NCBI RefSeq assembly: GCF_002289565.1
Contig: NZ_NTFY01000060.1
Span: 1 to 64,000, forward strand
Direction of reading: 5' to 3'
DNA from: Rhodopirellula sp. SM50
GTDB lineage: Bacteria > Planctomycetota > Planctomycetia > Pirellulales > Pirellulaceae
DNA: 64,000 bases
In this document: piece after piece, positions 6,221 to 45,423 of the stretch
Position numbering within the stretch: the first letter of the stretch is position 1
Layout of the letters: each line of letters begins with the position of its first letter
Translations under genes and position numbers: made by a program
Notes under the pieces: model-generated
The model's input: only the letters and a program-made list of their open reading frames with translations
The model's database searches: none
Told to the model about the DNA's origin: nothing

Positions 6221-6292
6221 AAAGTGGCGTAAGCTTCCAGCTTGCGTTTCACGAGTGAAACGAGGCGGCAAGCTGGAAGCTTACCCCACTTT
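6221..6292. repeat. Perfectly nested hairpin repeat at the exporter 3' end
   Basis: Outer arms 6221-6245 and 6268-6292 pair over 25 bases with one mismatch. An inner palindrome CGTTTCAC/GTGAAACG (6245-6252 and 6255-6262) lies in the loop. The element reaches the stop codon of the minus-strand exporter gene and lies upstream of dnaE2, so it may act as a terminator between the two. A half copy of the same motif occurs near 36678-36705. Confidence 0.7.
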
Positions 6293-8514: not shown

Positions 8515-8593
8515 TGCTCGGGTGGAGGGGGATGAACGAGACGGAACACTTGAGCTGAAGCTCAAAACCGCTAAGTCAAGACATGCGGAGGTG

Positions 8594-8662
8594 CCCGGAC
8601 GCTGGCGCGAACCGGCTGATATCAATCGATGATCAGCCGTTTGGCGCGAGCCTACGGGCTCC
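8594..8662. repeat. REP-like element, family B, intergenic copy
   Basis: The element has two related half-sites facing each other: CGGACGCTGGCGCGAACCGG (8597-8616) and ATCAGCCGTTTGGCGCGAGC (8632-8651), separated by about 12 bases, forming an imperfect palindrome. Other copies lie at 12359-12423, 20311-20377, 20419-20485 and 24762-24838. This copy lies between the exporter and the PKS promoter. Confidence 0.8.
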
Positions 8663-8797: not shown

Positions 8798-8825
8798 TTG
8801 ACGCGACCTGCCCCCCCATTATTAT
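8798..8825 (+). promoter_or_regulatory. Sigma70-like promoter of the lipid operon
   Basis: TTGACG (8798-8803) and TATTAT (8820-8825) match the -35 and -10 consensus at five of six bases each, with a 16-base spacer. Transcription would start about 30 bases before the PKS1 ATG at 8862. No operator is evident. Confidence 0.6.
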
Positions 8826-8861
8826 GGAGGCCAAGTTCGCTCGCAGACACACCGAGAGCCC

Positions 8862-11800
8862 ATGCAGACGTCGTCGCCAATCAAGCCAATCGCGTTGGTC
8901 GGCATGGCGTGTCGGCTGCCCGGGGCCGATGATCTGGACGGCTATTGGAGGGTGATTGGCGATGGCGTCGCGACCGCCCGCCCGCTTCCGCAAGCTCGCT
9001 TCGACCGATCTGTGTACTTTGATCCGCGGCGGGGAATCCCCAATCGCTCCTACTGCGACATCGGGTGTTTGGTCAATAAAAACGCCCGTGGCCGGCATTT
9101 CGACTCGCTGCCCGCATCGGTTCATGCCTGCCCCGAAGTGGCCTACCGGACGTTGTGCGATGTGGCGGCAGAGGCCTTGGACGATGCCGGAGTCGAACTT
9201 TGTCCGTCCGCGCGACGCGGCGGCGGCGTCTACCTGGGACACTCCCGAAGTAGCGGCTTGGCCGGCGATCTGGCGTATGGGACTTGCATCGCACAGTCGG
9301 CTCGTCTGCTCGGCAACGTGGAATCGTTTCGGGCGTTGAACGTCGATCATGCGCGGGTGATCGACGAATTGGTCACCGAAGTGCGTCGAGACATGCCGCA
9401 TCGAGACGAACAGGGGCGCCCCGCCTTGGGCCCGCACGTGGCCTCCGCGATGCTGGCGGACACGTTTGCGATGGGCGGTCCCTGCGTGACGTTCAATTCC
9501 GCCTGTGCGTCGTCGCTGAGCGCCCTCCATCAAGCGGTGTTGGCATTGCAGCAAGGTCGCATCGAGATGGCGATGGTCGGCGGGGCGTCGGTCTGTCACT
9601 TCGAAACCCTGGTGATGTTCTCCCAGGCTCAGTCGCTGAGCCGCGTGATGTCCCGCCCGTTCGACGAGGATGCCGACGGTCTGGTCGTCGGCGAAGGCTA
9701 CGCCGTGGTGATCCTTAAAACGCTTGAGCAAGCAGTCCGTGCCGGCGACAGGATTCACGGGGTCATTCGTGGCATCGGGGTCTCGTCCGATGGCAAAGGC
9801 AAAAGCCTGTGGGCGCCGCGCAAGGAAGGCCAAATCGTCGCGATCCGCCGGGCCTATGGCGATCACCTGAAGATCGGAAATCTGCAATACATCGAAGCGC
9901 ACGCCACGTCCACTCAGCTCGGTGATGCCACGGAAGTCACTGCGTTGGCCGAGGCATTGAGACTTCCCGCCGACCGTCGGATTCCGATCGGAAGCGTCAA
10001 AGCGAATATCGGCCACACGCTGGAGACCGCCGGTCTGGCGGGGCTGATCAAAGCCGTGCTCTGCATGCGTCACCAGACGATCGCACCGGCGGTCAACGTC
10101 CGTCAGTTGAACCGGTCGATCGACTGGGGATCGCTGCCCTTCTACGTGCCGATGCAAGCGGAGCACTGGCCCGAGCCGGCCGATGGCATGCCGCGTCGTG
10201 CCGCCGTCAACGCGTTCGGCATCGGCGGTTTGAATGTCCACGTGGTACTCGAAGAGTTCGTCGGCGATGGCTCCCGGGCGGCAATGCATGCCGGTGTGGA
10301 TGCCACGCAAGCGACCGAACGTCGGCAACACATCGACAACGTCTACGACCCCAGACGGTCATCCGGTGACGCCATCGCCGTTCTCGGACGGGGCACCGTG
10401 TTGCCAGGCGCGTTGAACGTCGACGCGTTTGCCAGGTTGTTGGTCAGCGGAGACGACCCCAAGGGGCCGATTCCCCAGCATCGCCTCGATCCCGAAATCT
10501 ACCTCGATCCCTCCGGGCCGAGACCTTGGCACTGTCTGAACAACCTGGCGGGAGTCGTGCGGGGATTTCAATACGATTGGCGCAAGCACAAGATTCCGCC
10601 CAAGCAGATCGCCAATGCCAACCCGCTGCAATTTATGATTTTGGATGCGGTCGACCAGGCCTTCCGTGAAGCCGGATTAGACCGTGAAGTGACCGATCGC
10701 ATCGGCGTGGTGGTCGGTTCGCCGTTCGGTGGCGAGTTTGCGACCCAGTTGCTGATGGGATTGCGATTACCCGAATTCCAACGGCGTCTGACGCGTTTGC
10801 TCGGCCGGCTCGGGTGTGATTCCCGGCAGTGCGAAGTGGTCAGCCGACAGTATGCCCAAACACTGATCCAGGCGATGCCGGCGCTGCTGGACGAAACCGG
10901 CAGCTTTACCAGCAGCAGTCTGGCGTCGCGAATCACCAAATCGTTCAACCTGATGGGCGGGGGCGTCGCCGTCGACGCCGGCAATTGTTCGTCAGCGGCG
11001 GCATTGATGTGCTGCGTCGATCAACTCGCCACCGGTGCCTGCGACATGATGGTCTGTGTCGGCGGGCAGGAAGATCTCAGTGCGACCTATTTGGAGCGGC
11101 TGGGGTTGACCGGTCTGCTCGCGAAAGGGACACCCCAATCGCCGCTGGACGCGGCGTCGCAAGGGTTGGTGCCGGCGGAGGGTTGCGGGGCGCTGCTGTT
11201 GATGCGGCTGGCCGACGCGAAACGACAAAAACGTGAGGTTTTGGGTATCATTCAAGGGGTGGGGGTCGCCACCGCCGCCAGCCAGTCCGACGCATCCGAA
11301 CGCGCGGTCGACGGCGCGTTGCGGCGGACAACGCGTCAGGGCCAATCGCTCGCAGCGGGTGACATCGCGCGGATCGAAACCACTTCGGTCGCCTGCCAAC
11401 GGCGAACCGCAGAGGAATTGGATGGGATCTACCACGCCTACGCCGAGCTCGCCCGGCAACGTCCCATTTCCCTCGATTGTCTGATGACACAAACTGGTCA
11501 CCTCGGAGCCGCCTCGGCGATCGTCGCGCTGATCAAGTCGACTCTGGAACTTCAACAACTGAAAACGACGGCCACGTTCGGACTGACTCGTGCGTTGCCG
11601 TTGATCGAATCCACCCCGTTGTTCGATGTCGCATCCCAGCCCCGGCCGCTGGAAGCGTCCGACCGCAGCGGACGCCTCGTCACCGCCGTTCACAATGCCG
11701 AACGTCGAACCGCCTATCACATCCTTCTCCAGCGAGATGCGAAAGTGCATGCTCCCAGCAAACCCCAGGCCCCAGTGACCGCCGACGCCTCGTACGACTC

Positions 11801-14132
11801 CCGGGTGATCGACGGCATCACCATCGTCGACGCGACGCGACGCCGAAAGGAATCGATGCGGGACAAGGCGATGCGTCAGTCCGTCACCGCGTCGGATTCG
11901 CCGTCGCGTGCTCCCGTGGCGGTTAGCGACGCTCGCCAGGGCATGTCCCCAGCGCCGATCACTCCAGCGCCGGCTCGCGGCAACGAGGTTGAATCGGCAA
12001 CGACAGAGACTGCCGCGACCGCAACTGCGGCGGCCGGTCTGTCCGACGAAGCACTGCAAGCGTTCTTGACGCGTTTTATCGTCGAACAAACCGGTTATCC
12101 GCCAGAGTTCATCGAGATGGACGCGGACTTGGAAGCGGATTTGGGAATCGATTCGATCAAAAAAGCTCAGATGTTCGGCGAACTGGGCGAACATTTTTCG
12201 ATCACCCCCGACGAATCCCTCACGCTGGACGACTTCCCCACGCTGCAGCACATTTTCGACTACCTCGCCACATCGGATCGATCATCGACTCCACCGGTCG
12301 AATCGAACCGTGACTCCGTTGCCACAACGGTCGCCCCACCCGATCCAGCGAAGCGTCCCAGCGCTGCGGCGAACCGATCGACGCCAACGGAAGATCAGCC
12401 GCTTGGCGCAAGCCTGCGGGCTCAGGATCAGCCTCCCCATGAACGCGATCGATCACCCCACATCCGATCCGACGGCGGGTCGACGAACGCAAATACTGAC
12501 CTACAGGATCGACCACTGGATCTGATCCCCGACGCCAAACGGATCAGCCGCACCAAGGACCTGTTGGACTTGGCGGGTCTGTCGATGCCGTATTTCGCCG
12601 AACACGAATGTGTCACCCAAGACACCACGCGAGTGGACGGAAAACCCGTGGTCACGTTCTGCAGTTCCAACTACCTGGGCATGTCCGGAGACCCCATCGT
12701 CTCGGCCGCCGCCAAAGACGCGATCGATCGCTACGGCACCAGTGTTTCGGCGAGCCGTCTGATCGCGGGCAAACCGTTGCACCGCGAACTGGAAGACGAA
12801 TTGGCGACGTTCCTGGGCGTCGAAGCGACTCTGGTTTTTTCGTCGGGCTATGCGGCGAACGAATCAATCATCGGGCATCTGTTCGGCCCCGGCGATTTGA
12901 TCATTCACGACTCGCTTGCCCACAATTGCATCATCCAAGGCGCTGAACTATCGGGGGCACAACGGCTGAGTTTTCCGCACAACGACAGCGGGGCACTGGA
13001 TCGCCAATTGCAAAACATTCGGCACAAGTATCGCCGCACGTTGATTGCGATCGAGGGTGCCTACAGCATGGACGGCGATCATCCGGATTTGCCGAAGTTT
13101 CTGGACATCAAGCGGCGGCACGACGCGTTTCTGTTGGTCGATGACGCCCACGCCATCGGCACGATGGGCTCGACGGGGCGCGGCAGCCCCGAGTTCTTCG
13201 ATCGTGATCCGAGCGAGATCGACTTGTGGGTCGGAACGCTCAGCAAGGCGCTGGGCAGTGGCGGAGGATTCGTCGCCGGCAGTCGCGAGCTGGTCGAGTA
13301 CCTCAAGTACAACACGCCCGGGTTCATCTACACGGTCGCTCTCTCACCGGCCAGCGCCGGAGCGGCCTTGGCGGCGCTGCGTCTGTTGCAGCAACAACCC
13401 CAGCGGATTGCCAAACTGCAACGCAACGCCCGGCTGTTGCTTGAACTGGCCAGGCAGCGTGGATTGGACACCGGTCCGGCGGGCGACACACCGGTCGTTC
13501 CGATCATGGTCGGAAACTCGCACACCGCGCTGCTGCTCTCACGTCGCTTGCTCAGCCGCGGCATTGACATCCAGCCGATCGTCTATCCGGCGGTGGAAAA
13601 CGACGCGGCGCGGTTGCGTTTCATGATCACCGCGCGGCACAGCGAGGAACAAATTCGCACGACGATTGATGCCCTGGCCGAAGACTTGCAAGCCGTGCGA
13701 GCCGAAAGTGTTCCGATCGACCAGTGGCAATCGCTGTTGACCGGCAAGAGCCCGATGCCGTTGGATCGAGATCGATCGCGGGAATCCGACGCGGCCGCGA
13801 ACCGGCAAATGCCAACCGAATTCCAGTCGTCTGACGCAAGCGGTCGGGCACCATCCATGTCGAACGGGCAACACGATTGGACGAAGGCGGACTTGCAGGA
13901 TTACCTGATCAATTTCATCGTCGAACAGACCGGCTACCCGCCGGAGTTCGTCGAGATGGACGCCGACATGGAAGCGGACCTGGGGATCGATTCGATCAAG
14001 AAGGCGCAGTTGTTCGGTGAACTGGGCCAACACTTTGAGATCACGCCGGATGAAAACCTGACGCTGGACGATTTCCCGAGCTTGCAAGAAGTCTTCGACT
14101 ACATCGCCGTCCGAGTAGGAATTCAGGCATGA
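8862..14132 (+). CDS. Hybrid polyketide/fatty-acid synthase with alpha-oxoamine synthase (PKS1)
   Basis: The product has 1756 residues. In order I see: a ketosynthase (about 5-470; Cys215 in NSACASSL, His347 in EAHATST, His385 in NIGHTLE); a second, degenerate ketosynthase resembling a chain-length factor (about 505-960; Cys709 in GNCSS kept, first active-site His lost); an ACP (about 1065-1140; Ser1098 in LGIDSIKK); a PLP alpha-oxoamine synthase (about 1220-1613; Lys1462 in GTLSKALGSGGG); and a second ACP (about 1675-1750; Ser1711). The ketosynthases resemble PfaA/HglE-type lipid synthases. Alpha-oxoamine synthases condense an acyl thioester with an amino acid, with loss of CO2, to a 2-amino ketone. 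The end overlaps the next gene in ATGA. A repeat element lies in the linker after the first ACP. The chain length and the amino acid used cannot be read from the sequence. Confidence 0.93.
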   Translation: MQTSSPIKPIALVGMACRLPGADDLDGYWRVIGDGVATARPLPQARFDRSVYFDPRRGIPNRSYCDIGCLVNKNARGRHFDSLPASVHACPEVAYRTLCDVAAEALDDAGVELCPSARRGGGVYLGHSRSSGLAGDLAYGTCIAQSARLLGNVESFRALNVDHARVIDELVTEVRRDMPHRDEQGRPALGPHVASAMLADTFAMGGPCVTFNSACASSLSALHQAVLALQQGRIEMAMVGGASVCHFETLVMFSQAQSLSRVMSRPFDEDADGLVVGEGYAVVILKTLEQAVRAGDRIHGVIRGIGVSSDGKGKSLWAPRKEGQIVAIRRAYGDHLKIGNLQYIEAHATSTQLGDATEVTALAEALRLPADRRIPIGSVKANIGHTLETAGLAGLIKAVLCMRHQTIAPAVNVRQLNRSIDWGSLPFYVPMQAEHWPEPADGMPRRAAVNAFGIGGLNVHVVLEEFVGDGSRAAMHAGVDATQATERRQHIDNVYDPRRSSGDAIAVLGRGTVLPGALNVDAFARLLVSGDDPKGPIPQHRLDPEIYLDPSGPRPWHCLNNLAGVVRGFQYDWRKHKIPPKQIANANPLQFMILDAVDQAFREAGLDREVTDRIGVVVGSPFGGEFATQLLMGLRLPEFQRRLTRLLGRLGCDSRQCEVVSRQYAQTLIQAMPALLDETGSFTSSSLASRITKSFNLMGGGVAVDAGNCSSAAALMCCVDQLATGACDMMVCVGGQEDLSATYLERLGLTGLLAKGTPQSPLDAASQGLVPAEGCGALLLMRLADAKRQKREVLGIIQGVGVATAASQSDASERAVDGALRRTTRQGQSLAAGDIARIETTSVACQRRTAEELDGIYHAYAELARQRPISLDCLMTQTGHLGAASAIVALIKSTLELQQLKTTATFGLTRALPLIESTPLFDVASQPRPLEASDRSGRLVTAVHNAERRTAYHILLQRDAKVHAPSKPQAPVTADASYDSRVIDGITIVDATRRRKESMRDKAMRQSVTASDSPSRAPVAVSDARQGMSPAPITPAPARGNEVESATTETAATATAAAGLSDEALQAFLTRFIVEQTGYPPEFIEMDADLEADLGIDSIKKAQMFGELGEHFSITPDESLTLDDFPTLQHIFDYLATSDRSSTPPVESNRDSVATTVAPPDPAKRPSAAANRSTPTEDQPLGASLRAQDQPPHERDRSPHIRSDGGSTNANTDLQDRPLDLIPDAKRISRTKDLLDLAGLSMPYFAEHECVTQDTTRVDGKPVVTFCSSNYLGMSGDPIVSAAAKDAIDRYGTSVSASRLIAGKPLHRELEDELATFLGVEATLVFSSGYAANESIIGHLFGPGDLIIHDSLAHNCIIQGAELSGAQRLSFPHNDSGALDRQLQNIRHKYRRTLIAIEGAYSMDGDHPDLPKFLDIKRRHDAFLLVDDAHAIGTMGSTGRGSPEFFDRDPSEIDLWVGTLSKALGSGGGFVAGSRELVEYLKYNTPGFIYTVALSPASAGAALAALRLLQQQPQRIAKLQRNARLLLELARQRGLDTGPAGDTPVVPIMVGNSHTALLLSRRLLSRGIDIQPIVYPAVENDAARLRFMITARHSEEQIRTTIDALAEDLQAVRAESVPIDQWQSLLTGKSPMPLDRDRSRESDAAANRQMPTEFQSSDASGRAPSMSNGQHDWTKADLQDYLINFIVEQTGYPPEFVEMDADMEADLGIDSIKKAQLFGELGQHFEITPDENLTLDDFPSLQEVFDYIAVRVGIQA
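12359..12423. repeat. Family B repeat inside the PKS1 linker
   Basis: A diverged copy of the family B element lies in frame just after the first ACP. The half GATCAGCCGCTTGGCGCAAG (12393-12412) is clear; a weaker opposite half (GCGGCGAACCGATCG) precedes it. It translates as DQPLGASLRA within a Pro/Ser/Asp-rich linker, at about residues 1178-1187. Confidence 0.65.
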
Positions 14133-14977
14133 GCAGTCGTGGCGATGAAATTGGGAAGTCGGTGAGCATGTGGCTGGATCAACGCGAGTCCACTCCGCCT
14201 TGGCCGTCAACGCTGCCGTCGTGGCTGGCGCCGTGCGAACTGGAAGAGCTGAATTGCTTTCGCGCGCCCAACCGGCGATGTGACTGGATCAGCGGACGGT
14301 GGTGCGCGAAACAACTGCTCAGACAAATGGTTTCCGACGCGACCGACTCGCCTCTCACGTGGCAGATCCTTTCACGCGCGTCGATGCGCCGCGGGTGCCG
14401 TCCCACCGTTTTTCGAAATGGGATTCAACAACCGATTGATCTGTCGCTCGCCCACTGTGCATCGATCACCGTTGCCGTCGCAGGTCAGCACCGCCCGTCA
14501 GTTGATCGACGCGATGTTCCTCGAATTGGGGTCGATGCGGTCGATCGGACTGAACTGCCCGACAGTTTTGCGCGGACCTGGTTCTCATCCGCCGAGCGCC
14601 GCCTGTTGCAAGACCATCGCTGGCCGATCGCCGCGGGATGGGCGGCGAAAGAGGCGGTGTTCAAAGCTTGCAACGGTGGCGAAGCGTTTCGGCCGGGGCG
14701 TGTGCGGATGATCGAAATCACAGCCGAGGGCTGCACCGTTGCATACACGAATCACTCTCTCGCCAACGTACACATCAACGTTGTTGACGACGCCATCATC
14801 GCCGTCGCCCTTTCGAATTCACTCTTCAGAAGTCCCCCGCAAAGCCCAGGGAGAAGTGTGCGCTCGGAGCGGGGAGGGTTTTGGCGGCGGCAAGATTGTT
14901 GGCATCGATGGGGCATCGACTGGGGAAACCCTCCCCTCGCTGCGCTCGACCCTCCCGCACACGGGAGGGTGACGTGA
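14129..14977 (+). CDS. 4'-phosphopantetheinyl transferase (Sfp/AcpS superfamily)
   Basis: This 282-residue protein should attach phosphopantetheine from CoA to the active-site serines of the two ACPs of PKS1. The superfamily motifs are present: LAHCASITVAVAG near residue 108, IGVDAVD near 133 and WAAKEAVFKA near 168, which hold the Mg-binding acidic residues and the catalytic Lys. The start overlaps the PKS1 stop (ATGA), so the two are translationally coupled. The last 50 or so residues (from about SPPQSPGRSVRSERGG) are not typical; the final part, PLAALDPPAHGRVT, is the translation of a family A hairpin repeat that also supplies the stop codon. The functional protein probably ends its fold near residue 225. 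Confidence 0.88.
   Translation: MSSRGDEIGKSVSMWLDQRESTPPWPSTLPSWLAPCELEELNCFRAPNRRCDWISGRWCAKQLLRQMVSDATDSPLTWQILSRASMRRGCRPTVFRNGIQQPIDLSLAHCASITVAVAGQHRPSVDRRDVPRIGVDAVDRTELPDSFARTWFSSAERRLLQDHRWPIAAGWAAKEAVFKACNGGEAFRPGRVRMIEITAEGCTVAYTNHSLANVHINVVDDAIIAVALSNSLFRSPPQSPGRSVRSERGGFWRRQDCWHRWGIDWGNPPLAALDPPAHGRVT
14908..14970. repeat. Family A hairpin at the end of the phosphopantetheinyl transferase gene
   Basis: The stretch matches bases 1-64 of the window closely, including the palindrome ACCCTCCCGCACACGGGAGG. It lies inside the last codons of the upstream gene. In position it could also attenuate transcription toward the reductase gene 300 bases downstream. Confidence 0.75.
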
Positions 14978-15029
14978 ATTCAAATTCAAGACATAGATAA
15001 CATTAGGCTCTGTCCCTAGAGTCCTGCGA

Positions 15030-15108
15030 GCGAAAAGGGGGTCAGGAGTCAATAGTGCAAAGCACCCGTAGGGCCGTTCCGGCTATTGACTCCTGACCCC
15101 GTTTTCGC
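15030..15108. repeat. 26-bp inverted repeat (large stem-loop)
   Basis: Arms 15030-15055 and 15083-15108 are complementary over 26 bases with one mismatch, with a 27-base loop. The arm core is GGGGTCAGGAGTCAATAG. It sits in the 298-base gap inside the lipid operon. It resembles dispersed REP-type elements; no transposase is near. The rest of the gap, to 15275, shows nothing I recognise. Confidence 0.75.
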
Positions 15109-15275
15109 GGTCACTCGCTCGGGCAGACGTGTTGGTGTGCAGGCTTTTGCCGCCCGTCGTCGCTGCGTCGCTGCGACCGGGAATCGCCTCAAGGCTAAAC
15201 ACCAACGGTTGCCGAATTCCAAATTACTGATACCCGTGTCATTCATTTCAAATCTCGAGTTACGCATCCCGCATC

Positions 15276-16040
15276 ATGATTGATCTCAACGAAAAAGTCG
15301 CATTGGTCACCGGAAGCTCGCGTGGGATCGGTCGCTCGGTGGCGATCACGTTGGCCGAGGCGGGCTGCGACGTGATCGTCAATTACGTCACCTCGCAGAA
15401 CGAGGCGTTGGCAACGGCCAAAGAGATTCAATCGCTGGGCCGCCGATGCTGGATTGTTCGCGCCGACGTCAGCGAAGAAGACGATGTTCAATCGATGTTT
15501 GAATTCATCGAGCAAGAAATCGGACAACTGGACATCTTGGTCAGCAACGCGGCGACCGGCGGATTTCGCCCCTTGCTGGATTCCAACCCCAAACACTTCG
15601 CCGCGGCGATGAACACCAATGTGCTCGCGCTGATTCACCTGGCCAAAGCAGCGGTGCCGCTGTTGGAAAAGGCTCAGGACCGCGGCAAAGTGATCGCGAT
15701 TTCCAGTCACGGATCCCACATGGCGCTTCCCATGTACGGCTTGATCGGCGGATCGAAAGCGGCGTTGGAAAGCATCACGCGACACTTGGCGTTGGAGCTG
15801 GGGGATCGTCGCATCAACGTCAACGTGGTTAAATCAGGACTCGTCGAAACGGATTCGACGCGTCGCATCCCGGGGGCGGAAAAAATGTTTGCCGCCCGAA
15901 CGGCCAAAACCATGATGGGAAAGCGACAGCTGGAGCCCTCCGACGTCGCCAACGCCGTCGCCTTTTTGGCCAGCCCGATCAGCGATTTGATTCAAGCGAC
16001 AACCATCACCGTTGACGGGGGAGCCGCCGCCCACGTGTAG
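15276..16040 (+). CDS. SDR oxidoreductase, enoyl-ACP reductase of FabL type
   Basis: The 254-residue protein has the SDR Rossmann motif TGSSRGIGR (residues 12-20) and NAATGG (91-96). Its catalytic spacing is Tyr154-x6-Lys161 (YGLIGGSK). The ketoreductase type has Y-x3-K, while Y-x6-K is the signature of the enoyl reductases FabI and FabL; B. subtilis FabL has the same spacing. I therefore call it the NAD(P)H-dependent enoyl-ACP reductase that saturates the chain made by the two synthases, both of which lack an obvious enoyl reductase domain. It lies between the phosphopantetheinyl transferase and PKS2 on the same strand, 59 bases before PKS2. Alternative: a ketoreductase of the same superfamily. 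Confidence 0.85.
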   Translation: MIDLNEKVALVTGSSRGIGRSVAITLAEAGCDVIVNYVTSQNEALATAKEIQSLGRRCWIVRADVSEEDDVQSMFEFIEQEIGQLDILVSNAATGGFRPLLDSNPKHFAAAMNTNVLALIHLAKAAVPLLEKAQDRGKVIAISSHGSHMALPMYGLIGGSKAALESITRHLALELGDRRINVNVVKSGLVETDSTRRIPGAEKMFAARTAKTMMGKRQLEPSDVANAVAFLASPISDLIQATTITVDGGAAAHV

Positions 16041-16099
16041 AGTCGCACACGTATCGCTGCGTGCCAGTGGCCGCGTGCCAGTCGCTGCGGAGTCGAACC

Positions 16100-19000
16100 A
16101 TGAACGTCCACCACCAACAAGACTCTGACACGCCGCTTGCCGTGATCGGCATGGCCTGTCGTTTGCCCGGCGCGGACGACTTGGATGAATACTGGTCGCT
16201 GATGATCGAAGGCCGCAGCGCGATCGCGGAATTGCCCCCCGAGCGGTTGGATCAACGACGTTACTACGATCCCGAAATCGGACGCTTCGGCAAAACGTAC
16301 TCCAAGATCGGCGGCATCGTCGGCAACCGCACGGCGCCGATGGAACCGTTTCGTCTCTCGGATCATGACATCGAAAACGCGGACCATTCGCATTTGGATT
16401 TATGTCAGGTCGCCGGTCAGGCGATTCGCGACGCCGGCCTCGATCCGCGCGCCACCGTGTCGACACGAGGCGGGGTGTTCGTCGGCCATCAACGCGGTTC
16501 CAACTTGATCGGCGAATTGACGCTCGGCGTGATGGCCAACCAGGCGATGGATTGTCTGCGGCAAACGGATTACGTTTCGCAAAGGTCCGCTCACGAGCAA
16601 GCCGCCTTGGTCGAGGAAATGGCCCGACGGGTGCGCCGTGATCTGCCCCAGCGACGTCCCGGCGGCGGCCCGTGGTTGGAAAGCTCTGAAGCGTCGCGGC
16701 TGATTTCCAAAGCGTTCGGGCTAGACGGCCCCTGTCTGTCGATCAACGCGGCGTGCAGTTCTTCGCTGGTCGCGCTGGCCGCCGGCGCCCATGCGCTCCA
16801 AATGGGTGACATCGACTTGGCCGTGATCGGCGGGCTGTCTTATTGCAAGCTGGACGCGTTGATCTTGTTTTCGCAAGCACAGACCGTCAGCGGAACCGGA
16901 TCACGTCCGTTTGATGCCGACGCGGACGGACTGGTCGCCGCGGAAGGCTACGTCGTCGCGGTGGTGAAAACGCTCGAACGTGCCTTGGCGGACAAGGATC
17001 CCATTCGCGCGGTGATCCGTGGAATCGGTGTTTCCTCCGACGGCAAAGGCAAGAGCCTCTGGGCGCCGCGGCGTGAAGGTCAGATTGCCGCCGTCCGCCG
17101 CGCCTATTCGGCCGGCGTCGCGCCGGGCTCGGTTCAGTATGTCGAGGCCCACGCGACGTCGACGCCGGTCGGTGATTCGACCGAGATCAACAGCTTGGCC
17201 GAAGCGTTTAACGAGTCGTTCGAGCGGCCCCTGGATCAAAAAATCCCGATCGGCAGCGTGAAAGCCAACATCGGACATACGCTGGAGGCCGCCGGGCTGG
17301 CCGGGCTGATCAAAACGGTCTTGGCGATGCAGCACCGGATGATTCCGCCGGTGATCAATTTGCATCAGCCGAACCCGAAGGTGGATTGGGCGGCTGCGCC
17401 GTTTCAATTGCCGACCAGCGCGATGCCCTGGCCGGATCCGCCGCCGGGCAGCCCCCGGCGGGCGGGCGTCAACGCGTTCGGAATTGGCGGATTGAACGTC
17501 CACGTCGTTCTGGAGGAACACTCGACCGCGACGCCAATCCATTTTCGCTCGCCCGACAACACGTCCTCGGAAGACCGATCGATCGCCGTGGTCGGCGCCG
17601 CACTGCTGACGCCCGGGGCGCGAACGATCACTCAGTTTTGGGATCTGCTGTCGACCCAGCAGGATCCCAAGGTGCCCGTACCGGACGATCGCTGGGATGT
17701 CAGACTGGATCACGGGGATGAAGCCAAGCATTGGGTGGGCGGGTTCATCCAGGATTACCAATACGATTGGCGACGGCATCGCATTCCGCCGAAACAGGTC
17801 GCCAACGCCGACCCACTTCAGTTCATGCTCCTGGACACGGTCGCCCAAGCGCTCGAAGACTCTGGATATGAGTCAAAGCTGGACCACGAACACACCGCGG
17901 TCATCGTCGGTAATCTCGTCGGCGGCGAGGCCAGTTCTCAGCTGCTGGTCGGACTGCGACTGCCGGCGCTCCGGGAGGTCATCGAAACGGTGCTGAGCGA
18001 GAAAGGCGTCCCCGCGGCGCAGATCGCCGAGACGTCTCGGGCGTTTGCCGAGGTGCTGCTCGAACGAATGCCGGCCTTGCTGGACGAAACCGGTGGATTC
18101 AGTAACAGTTCGTTGGCCTCGCGGATCACCAAGACCTATGACCTGATGGGCGGTGCGTTCGCCCTGGACAGCAGCGACAACTCTTCGATCATGGCGGTCA
18201 ACGCAGCCCGAGGGTTCCTGCTGCGGGGCGGGTGCAAGATGGTGATCGCTGCCGGAGCCCAACGTGACCTCGGCCCCCATGCGTTCGAATGTCTCCGCCT
18301 GGCATCGCGGCTGAGTCCGTCCGGTCGTGTCCGATCGCTCGACCAGCACTCCGACGGCATGGCGCCGGGCGAAGGCGTTGCGGTCGTGTTGCTGAAAACA
18401 TTGAGTGACGCGAAAGCCGACGGCGACGAAATTCTGTCGGTGATCCGTGAAATCGGTATCGCGCGTCACGACGATCAACAAACCGCACAGCGACTGGCCA
18501 TCGGCCGCGCCCTGTCGGGAGCGGAGGTCACTGCCGAACAAGTCTCCGCCGTCGAACTTTCCGCCGCCGGTGTTGCCGAGGAGGACCGTGACGAGTTTCA
18601 TGCGATCGCTGAGGCGTACGCCGTGCAGCGAGAGCGACCACTTCACTTGCGCTCACTCGCCGGGCAACTCGGTCACGCCGGCAGCGCAGCGGGAATGATC
18701 GCGCTCATCAAGTCGTCGTTGTCGTTGCAGCACCTCCAATCGCCGGTCGGTTTGCCTGCCGATCAGCCGGTCGACGCCTTGTCCAACCAAGCGTGGTGTG
18801 AGTTGCCTGCCGCGAACCAGGACTTGCCGCTGGTCGATCCCTCCGGTCGCGTCTATTCCGCCCTCAATTCCTACGCCAGGGGCATGGCATGTCACGTCGT
18901 GATCGAGCGGGGACAGCCCGTTTCAAGCACGTCGTCTCAATCCGATCGCGGCAACACGATTCGCTCCGTGTCCAATCCCGATCATGGCTTTCGAAGCTGG

Positions 19001-22000
19001 ATCGGTGAAGCCGACTGTCTGTCCGAACTGATCGACAACGCCAAACAGATTGCCGCGGGCGGGTCCATCGATTCGGCCGCCGCACGTCAGCGCACTGTTT
19101 CCGACGGCACTCTCCGGCACGGACTGGCGATCGTCTATCGATCCGACGACGAACTTCGCAAGCGTGCGGGGCTGTTTGTTTCCCGCCACTGCGACCCCAA
19201 ACGGGCTGCCCTATTTGAAAGCCAAGGCATCTACTGCGTCGAACGAACGCGGCGACCGATGGTGGCGTTCTTGTTTCCAGGTCAAGGATCGCAGTACCCG
19301 TCAATGCTGACGGATCTGGTCCGGGAAAATCCCGTCGCCGCCGCGGCCGCTGCACGCATGGATGACATCTTACAATCCTTGGACTTCCCGAGCTATCGAG
19401 ACCTGGTCGTCGATCATGCCGCTCGCCTTGGAACGGATGTCTGGCGCACACAACTTTCATTGCTGGTCGCCGACTCGATCCAGATGGAAGTCGTCGATGC
19501 GATGGGCATCAAGCCCGATCGAATCTCGGCGCACAGTTATGGAGAGTTCCCGGCATTGGTCGCAGCCGGTGCGTGGGATTTCCGAAACGCGGCGCTGGCG
19601 ACGTTTCATCGTTGTCGGTTGATCACCGAGTCCAAGCAAATCGACGGCGCGATGCTCGCAGTCGACTTGGATCGCAGTGAGACGCAGCAACACTGCAACG
19701 CCTATCCGGGCGAAGTCTTTGTCGCCAACTGCAACAGCGACCGACAAACCGTCATCGCCGGCAGTCGTGGCGCGATCGAGAAGTTAAAAACTCGAATGGT
19801 CGAAGCCGGGGTTCACGCCAAGATTCTGGACGTGCCCCGCCCCTATCACACACCGTTGATGGCGCCGATTCAACCCGCGTTTCGACAGATCCTCGACCAG
19901 CTGGAAATCGCCCCGCCGCGGACTCCGTTGCTGAGCAGTGTCGACAACCGCTACGTCGCCGAACCGGACGCGATCCGCGAAAACCTGGTCCAGCAGTTGG
20001 TGCAGCCGGTACTGTACACCGACCAGATCCGGCGACTGGCCGGCGAAGGCGTGAACGTGCTGTTGGAAATCGGCCCCAACCCGGTTTTGACACGGCTGCA
20101 CGAACAGATCGTCGGCCCAATCGTCGGCGACGAAGTGTTGTGGACCGCGACGGACCACAAAAAGCGTCACCATGGTGAGTCCATGACCCGGCTGGACGCC
20201 GCATTCCGAGCCGCCGGTGTCCCGACCGGCCGGTCGGACGGTATGGAAACGCGGTTGCGGATTGCGGGTGGCACGGATGACGTCCAGTCATCAGTCGGGA
20301 AGGTTGGTGGGCCCGTAGGCTCGCGCCAAACGGCTAATGCACAAACGACATCAGCCGGTTCGCGCCAGCGTCCGGGCAGCGAGAGTGATCTCCAGTCACC
20401 GGCGTCGAACGCCGAAGGGCCCGTAGGCTCGCGCCAAACGGCTGATGCACAAACGACATCAGCCGGTTCGCGCCAGCGTGCGGGCACTGGGGGTGACGTG
20501 CAGGCAACGGCGACGGATTCCGAAGCGGGGCTTCAGCTTTTGTTCTTGGAAGGTTCGCCTCGCGCGATCGGGGCCGCACACGGTCAAGCCATGGCGGTGG
20601 CGATACGCCGCATGCTGGATCGCTACCAAGAGATCGAAACGGGCAAGTTGGGCAGAACACTGCCGGATTTGTCGCTCGCCAAGTCGATGTTGGACAAGCT
20701 GGTCGACGAATCGGCGTCGGAGGAAATGCGTGGGATGGCCGATGCCGCGGGCGTCCCCCTCGGCGCGCTGCTGGAACACAACCTTTACGCCTATCCGGAG
20801 ATCGGCGCCGGTTGCACGCAAATCCTCGCCGGCCGACCATCGCCGACCTCGCGATCGGGCGGACAACCACGCCAGACGCAGTGGCTGCACGGGGCCAACG
20901 AAGACATGCCGCTGGGGCTATTCCTTCGCGACTCGATGCGACGCTGCGTTCAAGTCCGGCGACCGACCGATGGATTGCCGCACCTGCTGTTCTCCGCCGC
21001 AGGCCACGTTTTAGGGATCAACGGCGTCAATGCGGCCGGATTGGTGATCACCGGTTCGATGTTGTTGGACCGGCCCCGCCGCAGCGAAACCCTTGACGGA
21101 CTGCTTCACTCGATCGTCATCCGTCGCGTCCTGGAAACCGCCGAATCGGTCGACGACGCCGTCGACATACTGCGTCGCGCACGCACCACCGGCGGCTGGG
21201 GGATGTGCATTTCAGACGCGTGCGGGAGCGATCCCGCCTATGTCGAATACGATTGCGGAACGTTCCGATCCGAGCGGCTGACTGACCATCACCTGGTCAG
21301 CAATCATGCCCAACTGCTACCGCCCCTCATCGACAAACCCAAGCACTCGCTGTTGCGTCAACAACGGCTCGAATCACTATGGCGGCAGAAAGGCGACGAG
21401 GTTCCGTCGACCGCGATGCTGCAGCGATGGTTGAGGGATCAGTACGACGAAGGCCGTGGTCGGGAAGTCCGCTTTGCGACCATGAACACCATCCGGCGGG
21501 TCGACAACCAGGTCAGCGTTCTGTTTGATGTCCGTTCCGCACGGGCTTGGGCGACGCCGGGCAATCACGCGACCGGGGCGAACGCGAATCAGTTTTTCGA
21601 ACTCGACTTGCAGGCGTTGATCGGACTGCAACCGGGCGGTCGACAACCTCGACCTGTCGTTGCGAGGCCGAATGCCGCGAAGAAATCAGAGTCGACAACC
21701 GACCGAGTGATCTCCTGGCAAGAATTTTCGCAACGCTCCACCGGTGTCGACGACCGATCACCGCTCGATGATGCGGGCAAGGTCTGCAATCGATTCGCAT
21801 TGCGGTGCATCGAAGTTCCGCCCGCTCCCCGGACAGAGGCGTCGACGGCACTCCACGGCGGCGTCGTGTTGCTCGGTGACAACGCCGCTGCCGACACACT
21901 TGCCCAAACGCTGCAAGGTTCAGGCCTGCGCTGTCTGCACCTGCGCCGACTGGACGACGTGGCGGCCGCCGTGTCCGCACTGGAATCCTTTTGCCAGAGC

Positions 22001-24244
22001 GGTGTGCCGACGAACCTGTTCTTGCTGACCGCATGGGATGGAAACGCCGCCGAGGGTGTTTCGACGGAGTGTTGGCAACAACGCCGACAGAGCGGCATGT
22101 TGGCTCCGTATCAAATCTGCCAGCGTTGGCTGAAGCTGTTGGGCGACAACGAGTTAGTCGGCGAGGGAACGATCGTCGGCGGTGTCCGTCTGGGCGGACT
22201 GTTTGGATTTGACGACGGAGTGACCTCGCCCGAAGGTGGATTCTCGACAGGGCTGATCAAGGGTCTGTTGATTGAAATGGGTTTCGCCGCGCAGACTTCG
22301 TTTCGAGCCCGTGTCGTCGATTTTGATGCCGATGCCGAGCCGAGTTTTGTGGCGGCTCGATTGATCGACGAATCCGCCGCGGCAGCCGGACGGACGGCGG
22401 AAATCGCCTATCGCGGCGGCAAACGTCACGCCGTCGCGCCCGTGATCCTGCCCGTCAATCAATTACCCACCCTCAGCCAGGATTTCGGCCGGGTTTGGGT
22501 GATCACCGGCGGCGCCCGAGGCGTTACCGCCAAGATCGCTAAAGCCATCGGTCAGCAATTCGGCGTCAAGCTGCATCTGATCGGATCGAGTCCGATACCG
22601 GAAATCGACGACGGTTGGCGAAACTTGAACCCCGACCAGCGAAAGCAATTACGCGCGGAAGTCGTTCGCAAGGCGCTCGAGGCGGGTGAGGTCCCCATCG
22701 ATGCCTGGTCGCGCGTGGAAAAGGCCTTGGAGATCGACGAAAACCTCCGCGACTTCGCCGAGTCAGGACTGGACGTCAGCTACCACGCCTGTGACGTCAG
22801 CGACCATCGAGCGCTGTCACATTTGTTAGACCAGATCCGTCGAACGGACGGTTCAATCGACGGCATCGTACACGGTGCGGGCTATGAACAGGCGACCCGT
22901 TTTACCAAGAAGAATCTCTCCTCAGTCCAGCGGACGATCGCCTCGAAAGTCGACGGCGCGATCTCGCTGATGGAATTGACACGCCAAGACGACTTGAAAT
23001 TCTTTGCCGCGTTTGCATCCATTTCGGGTCGCTTCGGTGGCGTCGGCCAAACCGATTACTGCTTGGCCAACGAACTGTTGTGCAAACTGGTCAGCTGGTT
23101 TCGCAAGACGCGTCCCGAGGTTCATGCGGTCGCCTTTGATTGGCCCTCGTGGGATGAAGTCGGCATGGCCGTGCGTCCCGAATCTCGACTCGCCAAGACG
23201 CTCGTCGACGCCAAGTACATGCCCGTCGAGGAAGGCGTCGGACACTTCATCGACGAATTGCGACGCGGCTGCCCCGAAGCGGAGGTCTTGATCACCGACT
23301 GGGAACGCTACAAGCGATACTACACCGACCAATACGTCGCTTCCTTCAGCCCCTACCCGATGATCGACCGCGTCCAATGTGGGGATGATCAAAACGGCCG
23401 CAGTATCACGACCTCGCACGTGGTCGATCCTGTCAATAACAGCTTCCTTAGCCAGCACCTGTTGCGCGGCCGACCGATCTTGCCGTTCGTCGCCGCCGCG
23501 GAAGCCTGTGCCGAAGCGGCGAGTCTGCTGACCGGTGGCCGAACGGTGACAACAATCGAAAACTTTCGCATTGCCGAAGCGATGCGGTTCTTTACCGACC
23601 AGCCCCAGGAAATTCGTGTCCGCGCCGAGCGAACCGGTGACCAAGTCCGTTGCTCATTGCTCAGCGATTTTAAAAACCGCAAAGGACAGGTGCTCCGCAA
23701 AGATCGCGTACACGCCGACTGCACCATCCGATCGGACCGGCCCGATGATCGCACGGACGAACCGGTTGACTTTCCCGATGTCCCGTACATTCCGGTCCAC
23801 TACCTGGATCACAAATTGTCGGTGTATCACGGCCCGATCTATCGCCAGCTGGAACAGTTCTATTATTCCCAGCAGCAGTCGTGGGCGAAGATCAGAATTG
23901 CCGACCCGGCGGAGTTTCTTTCGGCCGAACCTGGCGATCGCATCATGCTGCCCTGTGTGCTGATCGATACCTGCGTGTTTTCGGCGGGAGTCCATGAATG
24001 GACGATTGACCGAACGGCGATCGCACTGCCGCATTCGATCGAGCGATTGCGGATGTTCACGCCACCGGTGGTCGGTGAGCAGGTCACCGCCCGGATCGTC
24101 CCGCTCGAATCGACCGACAAACACGCGACGTTCAACATCGACGTCTGGGACCAACACGGACAACCGGTGCTGCAGATCGAAAACTATCGCGCAAATGTGC
24201 TTGTTGCGACGATCCCACTCGATCGCGCACAATCCACAAATTGA
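16100..24244 (+). CDS. Multidomain polyketide/fatty-acid synthase with embedded Ntn-hydrolase (PKS2)
   Basis: From the ATG at 16100 (GCGGAG about 8 bases upstream; an in-frame GTG at 16061 is less likely) the protein has 2714 residues. Domains: ketosynthase (about 10-465; Cys219, His351, His393); chain-length-factor-like ketosynthase (about 494-885; nucleophile replaced, Asn694 in SSDNSS); acyltransferase (about 1054-1344; Ser1146 in AHSYGE); a linker with two repeat copies (about 1400-1465); a C45-type Ntn-hydrolase domain (about 1475-1830; Cys1572 in GAGCTQ, NED at 1600-1602); a structural plus catalytic ketoreductase (about 1890-2420; Ser2307, Tyr2320); and a C-terminal hotdog dehydratase (about 2430-2705; His2453 in HLLRGRPILP, Asp2623). 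No ACP is present, so it must act in trans on the ACPs of PKS1. Extension, ketoreduction and dehydration follow from family knowledge; the role of the Ntn domain is unknown. Confidence 0.92.
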   Translation: MNVHHQQDSDTPLAVIGMACRLPGADDLDEYWSLMIEGRSAIAELPPERLDQRRYYDPEIGRFGKTYSKIGGIVGNRTAPMEPFRLSDHDIENADHSHLDLCQVAGQAIRDAGLDPRATVSTRGGVFVGHQRGSNLIGELTLGVMANQAMDCLRQTDYVSQRSAHEQAALVEEMARRVRRDLPQRRPGGGPWLESSEASRLISKAFGLDGPCLSINAACSSSLVALAAGAHALQMGDIDLAVIGGLSYCKLDALILFSQAQTVSGTGSRPFDADADGLVAAEGYVVAVVKTLERALADKDPIRAVIRGIGVSSDGKGKSLWAPRREGQIAAVRRAYSAGVAPGSVQYVEAHATSTPVGDSTEINSLAEAFNESFERPLDQKIPIGSVKANIGHTLEAAGLAGLIKTVLAMQHRMIPPVINLHQPNPKVDWAAAPFQLPTSAMPWPDPPPGSPRRAGVNAFGIGGLNVHVVLEEHSTATPIHFRSPDNTSSEDRSIAVVGAALLTPGARTITQFWDLLSTQQDPKVPVPDDRWDVRLDHGDEAKHWVGGFIQDYQYDWRRHRIPPKQVANADPLQFMLLDTVAQALEDSGYESKLDHEHTAVIVGNLVGGEASSQLLVGLRLPALREVIETVLSEKGVPAAQIAETSRAFAEVLLERMPALLDETGGFSNSSLASRITKTYDLMGGAFALDSSDNSSIMAVNAARGFLLRGGCKMVIAAGAQRDLGPHAFECLRLASRLSPSGRVRSLDQHSDGMAPGEGVAVVLLKTLSDAKADGDEILSVIREIGIARHDDQQTAQRLAIGRALSGAEVTAEQVSAVELSAAGVAEEDRDEFHAIAEAYAVQRERPLHLRSLAGQLGHAGSAAGMIALIKSSLSLQHLQSPVGLPADQPVDALSNQAWCELPAANQDLPLVDPSGRVYSALNSYARGMACHVVIERGQPVSSTSSQSDRGNTIRSVSNPDHGFRSWIGEADCLSELIDNAKQIAAGGSIDSAAARQRTVSDGTLRHGLAIVYRSDDELRKRAGLFVSRHCDPKRAALFESQGIYCVERTRRPMVAFLFPGQGSQYPSMLTDLVRENPVAAAAAARMDDILQSLDFPSYRDLVVDHAARLGTDVWRTQLSLLVADSIQMEVVDAMGIKPDRISAHSYGEFPALVAAGAWDFRNAALATFHRCRLITESKQIDGAMLAVDLDRSETQQHCNAYPGEVFVANCNSDRQTVIAGSRGAIEKLKTRMVEAGVHAKILDVPRPYHTPLMAPIQPAFRQILDQLEIAPPRTPLLSSVDNRYVAEPDAIRENLVQQLVQPVLYTDQIRRLAGEGVNVLLEIGPNPVLTRLHEQIVGPIVGDEVLWTATDHKKRHHGESMTRLDAAFRAAGVPTGRSDGMETRLRIAGGTDDVQSSVGKVGGPVGSRQTANAQTTSAGSRQRPGSESDLQSPASNAEGPVGSRQTADAQTTSAGSRQRAGTGGDVQATATDSEAGLQLLFLEGSPRAIGAAHGQAMAVAIRRMLDRYQEIETGKLGRTLPDLSLAKSMLDKLVDESASEEMRGMADAAGVPLGALLEHNLYAYPEIGAGCTQILAGRPSPTSRSGGQPRQTQWLHGANEDMPLGLFLRDSMRRCVQVRRPTDGLPHLLFSAAGHVLGINGVNAAGLVITGSMLLDRPRRSETLDGLLHSIVIRRVLETAESVDDAVDILRRARTTGGWGMCISDACGSDPAYVEYDCGTFRSERLTDHHLVSNHAQLLPPLIDKPKHSLLRQQRLESLWRQKGDEVPSTAMLQRWLRDQYDEGRGREVRFATMNTIRRVDNQVSVLFDVRSARAWATPGNHATGANANQFFELDLQALIGLQPGGRQPRPVVARPNAAKKSESTTDRVISWQEFSQRSTGVDDRSPLDDAGKVCNRFALRCIEVPPAPRTEASTALHGGVVLLGDNAAADTLAQTLQGSGLRCLHLRRLDDVAAAVSALESFCQSGVPTNLFLLTAWDGNAAEGVSTECWQQRRQSGMLAPYQICQRWLKLLGDNELVGEGTIVGGVRLGGLFGFDDGVTSPEGGFSTGLIKGLLIEMGFAAQTSFRARVVDFDADAEPSFVAARLIDESAAAAGRTAEIAYRGGKRHAVAPVILPVNQLPTLSQDFGRVWVITGGARGVTAKIAKAIGQQFGVKLHLIGSSPIPEIDDGWRNLNPDQRKQLRAEVVRKALEAGEVPIDAWSRVEKALEIDENLRDFAESGLDVSYHACDVSDHRALSHLLDQIRRTDGSIDGIVHGAGYEQATRFTKKNLSSVQRTIASKVDGAISLMELTRQDDLKFFAAFASISGRFGGVGQTDYCLANELLCKLVSWFRKTRPEVHAVAFDWPSWDEVGMAVRPESRLAKTLVDAKYMPVEEGVGHFIDELRRGCPEAEVLITDWERYKRYYTDQYVASFSPYPMIDRVQCGDDQNGRSITTSHVVDPVNNSFLSQHLLRGRPILPFVAAAEACAEAASLLTGGRTVTTIENFRIAEAMRFFTDQPQEIRVRAERTGDQVRCSLLSDFKNRKGQVLRKDRVHADCTIRSDRPDDRTDEPVDFPDVPYIPVHYLDHKLSVYHGPIYRQLEQFYYSQQQSWAKIRIADPAEFLSAEPGDRIMLPCVLIDTCVFSAGVHEWTIDRTAIALPHSIERLRMFTPPVVGEQVTARIVPLESTDKHATFNIDVWDQHGQPVLQIENYRANVLVATIPLDRAQSTN
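20311..20485. repeat. Two family B repeats in tandem inside PKS2
   Basis: Copies at 20311-20377 and 20419-20485 are 108 bp apart, so the duplication keeps the frame (36 codons). Each is the reverse complement of the intergenic copy at 8594-8662. They translate as GPVGSRQTANAQTTSAGSRQ and a near-identical second unit, in the linker between the acyltransferase and the Ntn-hydrolase domain. Confidence 0.85.
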
Positions 24245-24637: not shown

Positions 24638-24910
24638 CCCAGGCTCCGCCTGGGAACACCTTGTCTTGGAGGCTCTGCCTGGGTTCTGCAAAATCTCTCC
24701 GTTGAAATGTGCATTCGTTCGCAGAATTTTGGCGGTTTCAATTCCCTTGGGGACTTCGTGGGATCAGCCGTTTGGCGCCAGCCTACGGGCCCTCCGTTGT
24801 TGCCGAGGCCCGAACGCTTGCGCGAATCGGCTGATGTCAATCGTGTTTTTGATTCCCAACCGCTCCATGTTCATCGTTGCACGTTCCCAGGCGGAGCCTG
24901 GGGACGAGTC
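24638..24910. repeat. Repeat-rich gap between the lipid operon and the kinase gene
   Basis: Dispersed motifs of the form AGGCTCCGCCTGGGAA occur at about 24641-24656 and, inverted, at about 24887-24905; a family B element lies between them. A related motif occurs at 41678-41790. I find no convincing gene in 24534-25046. Confidence 0.55.
24762..24838. repeat. Family B repeat, half-sites in the opposite order
   Basis: ATCAGCCGTTTGGCGCCAGC (24763-24782) comes first, then a spacer, then GAACGCTTGCGCGAATCGGC (24812-24831). The order is the reverse of the copy at 8594-8662, as expected if half-sites alternate in a longer array. Confidence 0.7.
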
Positions 24911-44640: not shown

Positions 44641-45423
44641 TGATAGATCCGCCCTGGCATCCGTTTTCCTGGGATCGCTTGACACCCTGTTGCCTCGCCG
44701 TCCCTAGGTGACTACTTCCGATCACAGCATTTTCATCTGCGGACCGACGCTGCCAGAGTGTCCACCAATCAAGGTTGCAGTCGCGTGGCTGGACGTTCCC
44801 TTCACTCCAGCCAAAGACCCGCAGAAACTGCGGCGAATCCTTCGATTCAACTCGGCGGAGGTCGATGCGTCCCTCCGCGCGCCAGCCATCCAATGGCTGG
44901 CATGGCCAAGGACAACCTGCACTCCATTGGGGGTGTTGCCGACCGTTACGATCGACAACTGAAAAGGCGTGACTTTGGATCGGATGACTGTGCAAATGTG
45001 CGCGTTGAACAGGTGAACCGCACACATCAGGCAATCAGGTTGTGTTATTTCAGGAGCCAAATTGCCCATCCAGGCCCCGAAGAGGTTGTTTCGATCCGGT
45101 GGAATGCATTTTGCACGTCGAATGGATTGTTGGGATGGTATTGGGTCCAACCGCAGAATTTCTTCCTGAGGTGTAGCGTGCGCACGAGGTGTGGGTGCAT
45201 CGGACCATGGAGGACGCTGCAATTGCGGTGTCGGCAGCACGATGCGCTCTTTTACTTTTGTCGTCGCGATCGGCACCTTTGCCCACCTGGATGAGCGCTC
45301 TCTCGCTCCCTTTCCCCCTGCGATTTCCCCTACGCGACCAGGCGATAGGGACGTTCGCAAATTCTTTTTGGCAGACTCCCAACGAATGCCAGTTTTGACA
45401 GACCTTTGGCGAGGAACACTCTG
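44641..45423. other. Gap between hypE and the giant gene, no confident gene
   Basis: Several open frames on both strands compete here (for example 44708-44962 plus, 44722-45516 minus) and none resembles a protein family. A perfect 9-bp hairpin GCCAGCCAT/ATGGCTGGC lies at 44881-44901. The last bases hold the ribosome site GAGGA at 45411-45415 for the giant gene. A decayed gene cannot be excluded. Confidence 0.5.

Follow-up and report, generated by a model that had tools for sequence, protein, structure and literature searches.

Sphingolipids whose chain is made by a polyketide synthase (PKS) are already known. In Pseudomonas fluorescens MYb115, the separate alpha-oxoamine synthase PfSgaB of the PfSgaAB (sga) system is reported to turn the acyl chains of an iterative type I PKS into C24-C28 sphinganines (PMC12134224), and the serine palmitoyltransferase (SPT) of Caulobacter is reported to prefer an acyl chain on a dedicated acyl carrier protein (ACP; PMC9386255). 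Pfa-type secondary lipid (polyunsaturated fatty acid) synthases, in the types of Shulse and Allen, occur in planctomycetes too, with type I in Gemmata and type J in Planctomyces limnophilus, and the words "oxoamine" and "aminotransferase" are absent from the available text of that work (PMC3098273). Milano et al. (2013) describe A-CP-PLP2 of Blastopirellula marina (A3ZWL3) and six other layouts with an embedded alpha-oxoamine synthase, none of which, in the text available, is like the one presented here (PMC3870968). Here, we describe a gene cluster at 8862-24244 in a stretch of 64,000 nucleotides from Rhodopirellula sp. SM50 (contig NZ_NTFY01000060.1, positions 1 to 64,000; the whole stretch is called the window). 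It encodes a Pfa-like synthase with two pairs of ketosynthase and chain length factor domains (KS-CLF), an alpha-oxoamine synthase (AONS) embedded between two ACPs of one subunit, and an N-terminal nucleophile (Ntn) hydrolase domain in the other. We propose, at a probability of about 70%, that it is a lipid synthase of the iterative, reducing kind from which the embedded AONS off-loads the product, and that it probably makes an amino lipid resembling a sphingolipid backbone in one self-contained machine.

The four plus-strand genes P0001 to P0004 are arranged head to tail, with overlaps or short gaps except for approximately 300 bp between the second and the third. Domains were called by Pfam and NCBIfam searches of long uninterrupted open reading frames, and catalytic positions were computed by motif, those of AONS and Ntn being confirmed in alignments to solved structures. 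P0001 (8862-14132, 1756 aa) has an open frame from 8802 and its first ATG at 8862, so that the start at 8798 given earlier lies slightly 5' of the frame. It comprises KS1 (8862-10301; C215/H347/H385), a CLF-like second KS domain (10332-11741), which as read in sequence is without the usual Cys/His set, ACP a (12048-12281; PF00550; Ser1098 in LGIDSIKKAQ), the AONS domain (12540-13709; PF00155, 5.6e-45; TIGR00858, 8.5e-107) and ACP b (13887-14129; Ser1711, the same motif). P0002 (14129-14977) is a 4'-phosphopantetheinyl transferase (PPTase; PF01648, 3.4e-11). P0003 (15276-16040) is a short-chain dehydrogenase/reductase (SDR) with Y154-x6-K161, for which the FabL enoyl-ACP reductase is the best NCBIfam model (NF005975, 4.3e-82; 275 bits, below the cut-off of 328), and it is referred to as a FabL-type enoyl reductase (ER). 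P0004 (16061-24244, 2727 aa) carries KS2 (16106-17545; C232/H364/H406), a second CLF-like domain (17561-18940; residues read in sequence), an acyltransferase (AT; 19241-20200; S1159/H1263; PF00698, 5.3e-39), the Ntn domain (20501-21609), a LINK segment of about 260 aa (21701-22480), a ketoreductase (KR; 22481-23260; S2322/Y2333/N2337; PF08659, 2.5e-30) and a dehydratase (DH; 23321-24241; H2466/D2636; PF14765 and PF21089). LINK was delimited by its position before KR and is probably a structural pseudo-KR half. All catalytic residues searched for are present, and the domains that the earlier note had named on two megasynthase proteins, with a PPTase and an ER, are borne out by Pfam and NCBIfam in long open frames. 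Divergent from the synthase operon lies a gene for an MMPL-family transporter of 777 aa (6292-8625, minus strand; PF03176, 5e-14).

KS, CLF, AT, more than one ACP, KR, DH, ER and PPTase in one cluster place the system among the Pfa-type secondary lipid synthases, and tandem ACPs and a separate ER are further likenesses to the polyunsaturated fatty acid synthases of this type. Membership in PfaA proper is rejected, since the omega-3 PfaA model TIGR02813 gives 416.9 and 614.2 bits and does not reach its curated cut-off of 1010.1, and since Pfam and NCBIfam scans found no second AT (PfaB type) in the cluster; they found no thioesterase there either. Known Pfa synthases use a PfaD-type ER, whereas the window encodes the FabL-type SDR. 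The PfSgaAB pair is similar in that an iterative PKS chain is joined to an amino acid by an AONS of the SPT kind. It consists of a monomodular iterative PKS and a separate gene for the oxoamine synthase, whereas here AONS lies inside a KS-CLF subunit, flanked by two ACPs, in a Pfa-like synthase with dual KS-CLF that also has the Ntn domain, the FabL-type ER and the MMPL protein. Proteins consisting of a fatty-acyl-AMP ligase-like (FAAL) domain, an ACP and an AONS (FAAL-ACP-AONS) likewise have AONS fused behind an ACP, but they are fed by their AMP-binding domain and have another ACP type, while the window has a resident chain-building synthase. Zeamine-type synthases are Pfa-like with a recruited domain dependent on pyridoxal phosphate (PLP) and make amino lipids; they are reported to use an aminotransferase and a thioester reductase, in contrast to the AONS of the window (PMC13291983). 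That paper surveyed Pfa-like hybrid synthases in 2026, and planctomycet, oxoamine, Ntn and sphing are all absent as words from its available text.

A related observation was made in the same bacterial family, where genus g3 (L041, L042 and L043) has a single-module highly reducing PKS (HR-PKS) with AONS at its end, like the PfSgaAB pair in fused form. It resembles the window in having a chain-building PKS with an AONS; KS, AT, KR and AONS were found by search and DH, ER and ACP by eye. It differs in that its AONS belongs to a separate clade, that neither CLF nor Ntn matches were found in the protein, and that 20 kb showed no MMPL homologue. A role of the window's cluster in the formation of stieleriacine, an N-acyl tyrosine, was considered and rejected: N-acyl amino acid synthases are the enzymes named in the work on it, whose available text lacks the terms polyketide, PKS, oxoamine and Ntn (PMC12479983). 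The pieces of the cluster have precedents, save the Ntn domain inside a lipid megasynthase, for which none was met, and the combination was not met in the literature searched. Neither a synthase of this sort with an internal Ntn domain nor the order KS-CLF-ACP-AONS-ACP was found described in the open-licence literature searched, which is weak evidence of novelty.

Solved SPTs and KBL can be aligned with almost the entire AONS domain, the best structures being the SPTs 3a2b and 8guh (3.8e-69). K1462, H1354, D1428, H1430 and R1586 align with 3a2b and 1fc4 and identify an alpha-oxoamine synthase; we take them to be the PLP lysine, the stacking histidine, the Asp and His of the D-x-H motif, and the C-terminal arginine. 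The absence of PLP-binding residues beyond Lys1462, which the earlier note had named as a way to overturn its proposal, does not apply, as these residues are present both by motif and by alignment to solved structures. Membership in SPT proper is not supported by the curated NCBIfam models, which reach 308.5 against a cut-off of 640; the best solved relatives are SPTs, and KBL scores almost as high.

The KS-CLF, AT, KR, DH and ER families serve chain building, and AONS enzymes perform decarboxylative condensations with acyl thioesters. On this background, the PPTase would arm both ACPs and the AT would load malonyl units. The two KS-CLF pairs together with KR, DH and the separate ER would then build an acyl chain on the ACPs that is presumably mostly reduced. 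Situated between the ACPs, AONS would join the finished acyl-ACP to a PLP-bound small amino acid (possibly serine, alanine or glycine) in a condensation that expels CO2, and would thereby release a long-chain 2-amino-3-ketone, i.e., a 3-keto-sphingoid-like base. The MMPL protein may move this lipid, perhaps further processed, across the membrane.

The cluster is conserved within the genus. An Ntn search of 241 genomes of the family gave matches in 12, six of which belong to the same genus (G000, G412, G413, G414, G415 and G417). The cluster is kept in 6 of the 14 listed genomes of the genus, and all six share the order KS-CLF-ACP-AONS-ACP / PPTase / ER / KS-CLF-AT-Ntn-LINK-KR-DH. Co-occurrence of the domain order, for which the earlier note had proposed a genome search, was thus found in five further same-genus genomes, and a chance arrangement is excluded. 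The orthologues in these five genomes show 82-95% identity over KS-CLF of P0001 and 93-97% for the ER, and the AONS domains are 93-97% identical across the same-genus clusters. An assembly error as the source of the AONS fusion is ruled out by the same fusion in five more assemblies, three of them single-contig; open frames and purifying selection in six genomes likewise rule out an artefact or a decayed gene. Median dN/dS values (15 pairs from six genomes, Nei-Gojobori counting) are 0.073 for AONS, 0.049 and 0.083 for the two ACPs, 0.075 for the ER, 0.10-0.17 for KS, CLF, AT and KR, 0.18 for both Ntn and DH, 0.26 for LINK, the highest value within P0004, and 0.34 for the PPTase. Few domains of the cluster are as constrained as AONS and the two ACPs. 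The MMPL gene adjoins the cluster in five of six genomes, the sixth being cut by a contig end, and is taken to belong with it. No homologue of the kinase encoded downstream in the window, or of the other queries, was found in the 12 kb past the synthase of G412 and G413, and the conserved unit therefore seems to span from MMPL to P0004.

Further evidence comes from sister synthases outside the genus. Matches to the Ntn domain were found in 22 of 246 genomes at the level of the order and in 8 of 392 at that of the phylum, counts that include the own genome and stand-alone Ntn genes. The sister set consists of 28 embedded Ntn copies in stretches of at most 20 kb each, several of them cut by contig ends; outside these counts stand L073 and L074 (possible duplicates), the stand-alone Ntn genes L060, L061, L185 and L186, and two weak or additional matches, one in G182 and the second one in G205. 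Each of the 28 stretches shows a synthase, or a remnant left by a contig end, and tandem ACPs are seen in sister synthases. None of the 28 fetched stretches shows an AONS; the reading for AONS covered part of the 38 genomes with a KS-CLF match. Instead, a fatty-acyl reductase of the NAD_binding_4 type adjoins the synthase in 18 of 28 loci (L053/L194, L056-L058, L062, L063, L065-L071, L175/L192, L176 with a weak, partial match, L179, L181 and L184). Loci without it are either cut near the synthase by a contig or locus end on at least one side (L054, L055, L059, L064, L072, L177, L178 and L180) or uncut with about 4 kb seen on either side (L182 and L183). In several sister loci there are also genes for an MMPL homologue and for a protein that weakly matches a condensation domain, the MMPL homologue being seen in L053, L069, L070, L176, L177 and L179. 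A contig scan with the Ntn alignment, which is one weak pattern, revealed a synthase only in L073 (a metagenome-assembled genome, MAG, of Blastopirellula marina) and L074 (a Planctomycetaceae MAG) among the matches listed (80 loci); both lie on short contigs and show no AONS.

The reverse holds in the genomes with AONS: a reductase query from G166 gave no genome-wide match at E<=1e-20 in any of the six, while it matched in G156 and in G166 itself. G156 has the most similar KS-CLF outside the genus in the KS-CLF search (56%), and its reductase lies directly 5' of a KS-CLF-ACP-ACP-ACP subunit, where the window has ACP-AONS-ACP. Because a reductase stands beside many AONS-less sisters and none is found in the six AONS genomes, AONS probably took the place of a reductive release on a shared chassis. 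This pattern favours what the earlier note had suggested, a self-contained reducing lipid synthase with off-loading by AONS; a close homologue with a product known to be of another class would have spoken against it, but the searches made brought up none of this architecture with any known product.

As to its source, AONS is a widespread domain, with a match at E<=1e-60 in 232 of 246 genomes of the order, the weaker of which are probably BioF/KBL-type proteins. By sequence, the nearest relatives of the window's AONS are the FAAL-ACP-AONS proteins of the same order, with 52-62% identity between the AONS domains in those read. Nine long proteins (L044-L052) combine an AMP-ligase motif and an AONS on one chain; seven of them have an ACP motif of the LGLDSLER type, while L052 is without a motif match and L046 lies outside the readout. 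Two further AONS occur in each of the six AONS-cluster genomes: one lies in an open frame of 1186-1242 aa, whose length presumably marks it as FAAL-like, and the other in a frame of about 380 aa. A tree of 44 rows groups the six Pfa-type AONS domains in a single clade (96/80) and those of the HR-PKS in another (100/100). In all six clusters, the ACPs on either side of AONS carry the Pfa-type motif LGIDSIKKAQ, unlike the LGLDSLER type of the seven FAAL-ACP-AONS proteins with a motif match, and AONS therefore seems to have arrived without its own ACP. It was probably recruited once, in an ancestor within the genus, from a protein of the FAAL-ACP-AONS kind. Apart from this, long proteins with an AMP ligase, usually an ACP motif, and an AONS seem very common in the order, as judged from L044-L052 and many genomes, and their commonness suggests a core amino-ketone or sphingoid-like lipid there. 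A Black Sea survey reported 138 Planctomycetota MAGs with Spt-like proteins (PMC11334938).

The Ntn domain has to be considered in more detail. It scores 109.6 bits with NF040521, the model of the autoproteolytic C45 family (2e-31; cut-off 85), and 2.1e-10 with PF03417, and with the nucleophile C1585 after G1584 and with N1613, D1615 and N1748 it is of the C45 type. Its profile is closest to isopenicillin N acyltransferase 2x1d (3.8e-16, nucleophile Cys aligned), with which it shares the Gly-Cys nucleophile and the Asn-x-Asp and Asn-His motifs; 2x1d is a separate enzyme, whereas this domain is embedded between AT and KR of a megasynthase. Weaker profile matches are acid ceramidase (E 0.0013) and NAAA (E 0.0038). 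Cys, Asn, Asp and Asn-His are all present in 26 of the 34 embedded copies (the 28 outside the genus and the six). The Cys is lost in eight: Cys, Asn and Asp together in L062, L067, L069, L070, L071, L072 and L179, and apparently only Cys in L184, which may be an alignment matter. That seven dead domains are kept in place suggests a structural role. Stand-alone relatives with intact catalytic residues occur in stretches without a synthase match (L060:381-1424, L061:8482-9564, L185:9956-11458 and L186:5529-6812). Probably, the embedded domain works as a C45 enzyme that transfers or hydrolyses acyl groups. Since C45 enzymes presumably need their Cys as the N-terminus, activity would imply a cut within the megasynthase. 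An obligate partnership with AONS is ruled out by the 28 other embedded loci without an AONS seen in their stretches, and this, together with the loss of Cys in 8 of 34 copies, means that the role of Ntn must be explained for the whole family.

Two alternatives build on this domain. The cluster may encode a ceramide-like machine, in which one chain is released by AONS and a second is moved by Ntn from an ACP to the amino group, resulting in an N-acylated two-chain lipid. The nearest profile, 2x1d, is indeed an N-acyl transferase, followed weakly by acid ceramidase and NAAA, enzymes of N-acyl lipids, and none of the six AONS clusters has lost the catalytic Cys, Asn, Asp or Asn-His. However, the best E-values for the latter two enzymes are 0.0013 and 0.0038, and 20 intact embedded copies (26 less the six) lie in stretches without an AONS seen, so that amide formation with an AONS product is not the general job of Ntn; we consider this machine unlikely. 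In a more specific proposal, which we regard as rather improbable, P0004 would cut itself at Gly1584/Cys1585, the freed Cys would take a chain from an ACP and N-acylate the AONS amino ketone to a two-chain ceramide-like lipid, and post-translational splitting by a built-in Ntn domain would extend to a wider family of planctomycete lipid synthases.

Alternatively, Ntn may be a release or editing hydrolase through which the chain leaves as a free fatty acid, while the product of AONS is a minor or another one. For known Pfa synthases, off-loading is attributed to PfaB, an AT-type enzyme with acyl hydrolase activity (PMC12895367), and neither a second AT nor a thioesterase was found here; Ntn also occurs in all sisters, which were, however, found by means of it. 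The strong constraint on AONS and its two ACPs speaks against a minor role of AONS, and synthases persist in the eight cases in which Ntn has lost at least its Cys, so that the family as a whole does not require Ntn for release; this explanation appears quite improbable. That AONS instead works at the outset, supplying a short amino-ketone starter for extension by the KS domains, is very improbable: AONS does lie inside the ACP array and not at the very C-terminus, and in SxtA-type systems it reportedly joins a short acyl-ACP to an amino acid, but an AONS product is not known to be ACP-bound and would need reloading, no adenylating enzyme was found among the neighbouring genes scanned, and the FAAL and HR-PKS relatives read carry AONS at their C-terminal end.

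Several points weigh against the proposed off-loading by AONS. The scores do not tell the amino acid, as SPT (236.9 bits), KBL (230.1) and the AONS/KBL structure 8s1y (229.1) are close to each other, and among the matches listed no AONS-family NCBIfam model reaches its cut-off. The branching order of FAAL, HR-PKS and Pfa-type AONS is not settled in the tree, in which the bootstrap had not converged and two outgroups are very long. Ntn, present in all sisters, offers a second possible release route. Finally, the reductase is missing from 10 of 28 sister stretches, so that its replacement by AONS is a pattern and not a proof.

The linkers of the synthase contain repeats. Between AT and Ntn (20309-20512, plus strand), two (1.9) in-frame units of 108 bp carry both arms of a REP-like element without mismatch. 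The arm has 420 matches in the genome (208 + 212) at <=3 mismatches, and none for a reversed-pattern control. The number of units varies among the orthologues (arm search, <=4 mismatches): one each in G412 and G414, six in G413, none in G415 and one diverged unit in G417. A diverged arm with 3 mismatches lies in the ACP-AONS linker (12397-12420, minus strand; arm search), and the other arm, less sure with 3 mismatches in 18, in the AONS-ACP linker (13790-13807); further REP-like positions are 8600-8658, 24766-24832 and L173:4148-4746. Speculatively, such repeats may have supplied synthase linkers, and perhaps recombination points as well. Another, palindromic repeat lies between the PPTase and ER genes (15038-15100), with 27 forward and 26 reverse arm matches genome-wide; in G412, the two open frames overlap where the window has this repeat.

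The cluster is preceded by an LpxB-like gene and a DNA polymerase III alpha gene, and followed by genes for a Ser/Thr kinase, a TPR protein and unrelated metabolic functions. Farther downstream, a giant open frame of at least 6198 aa (45406-64000 and beyond) probably encodes a huge secreted or surface protein; it contains numerous RTX calcium-binding repeats as well as one VWA7-like and one dockerin-like domain.

From a biological point of view, one lipid-synthase chassis on which two release routes have been swapped, a fatty-acyl reductase and an AONS, constitutes a natural experiment. The embedded and mostly catalytically intact Ntn domain raises the question whether such megasynthases cut themselves and transfer acyl groups with the N-terminal Cys so created. 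Should the product be an amino ketone or a sphingoid base, the cluster would provide a de novo sphingolipid-like compound by a way other than the usual SPT route, possibly alongside one that the FAAL-ACP-AONS-like proteins help to make.

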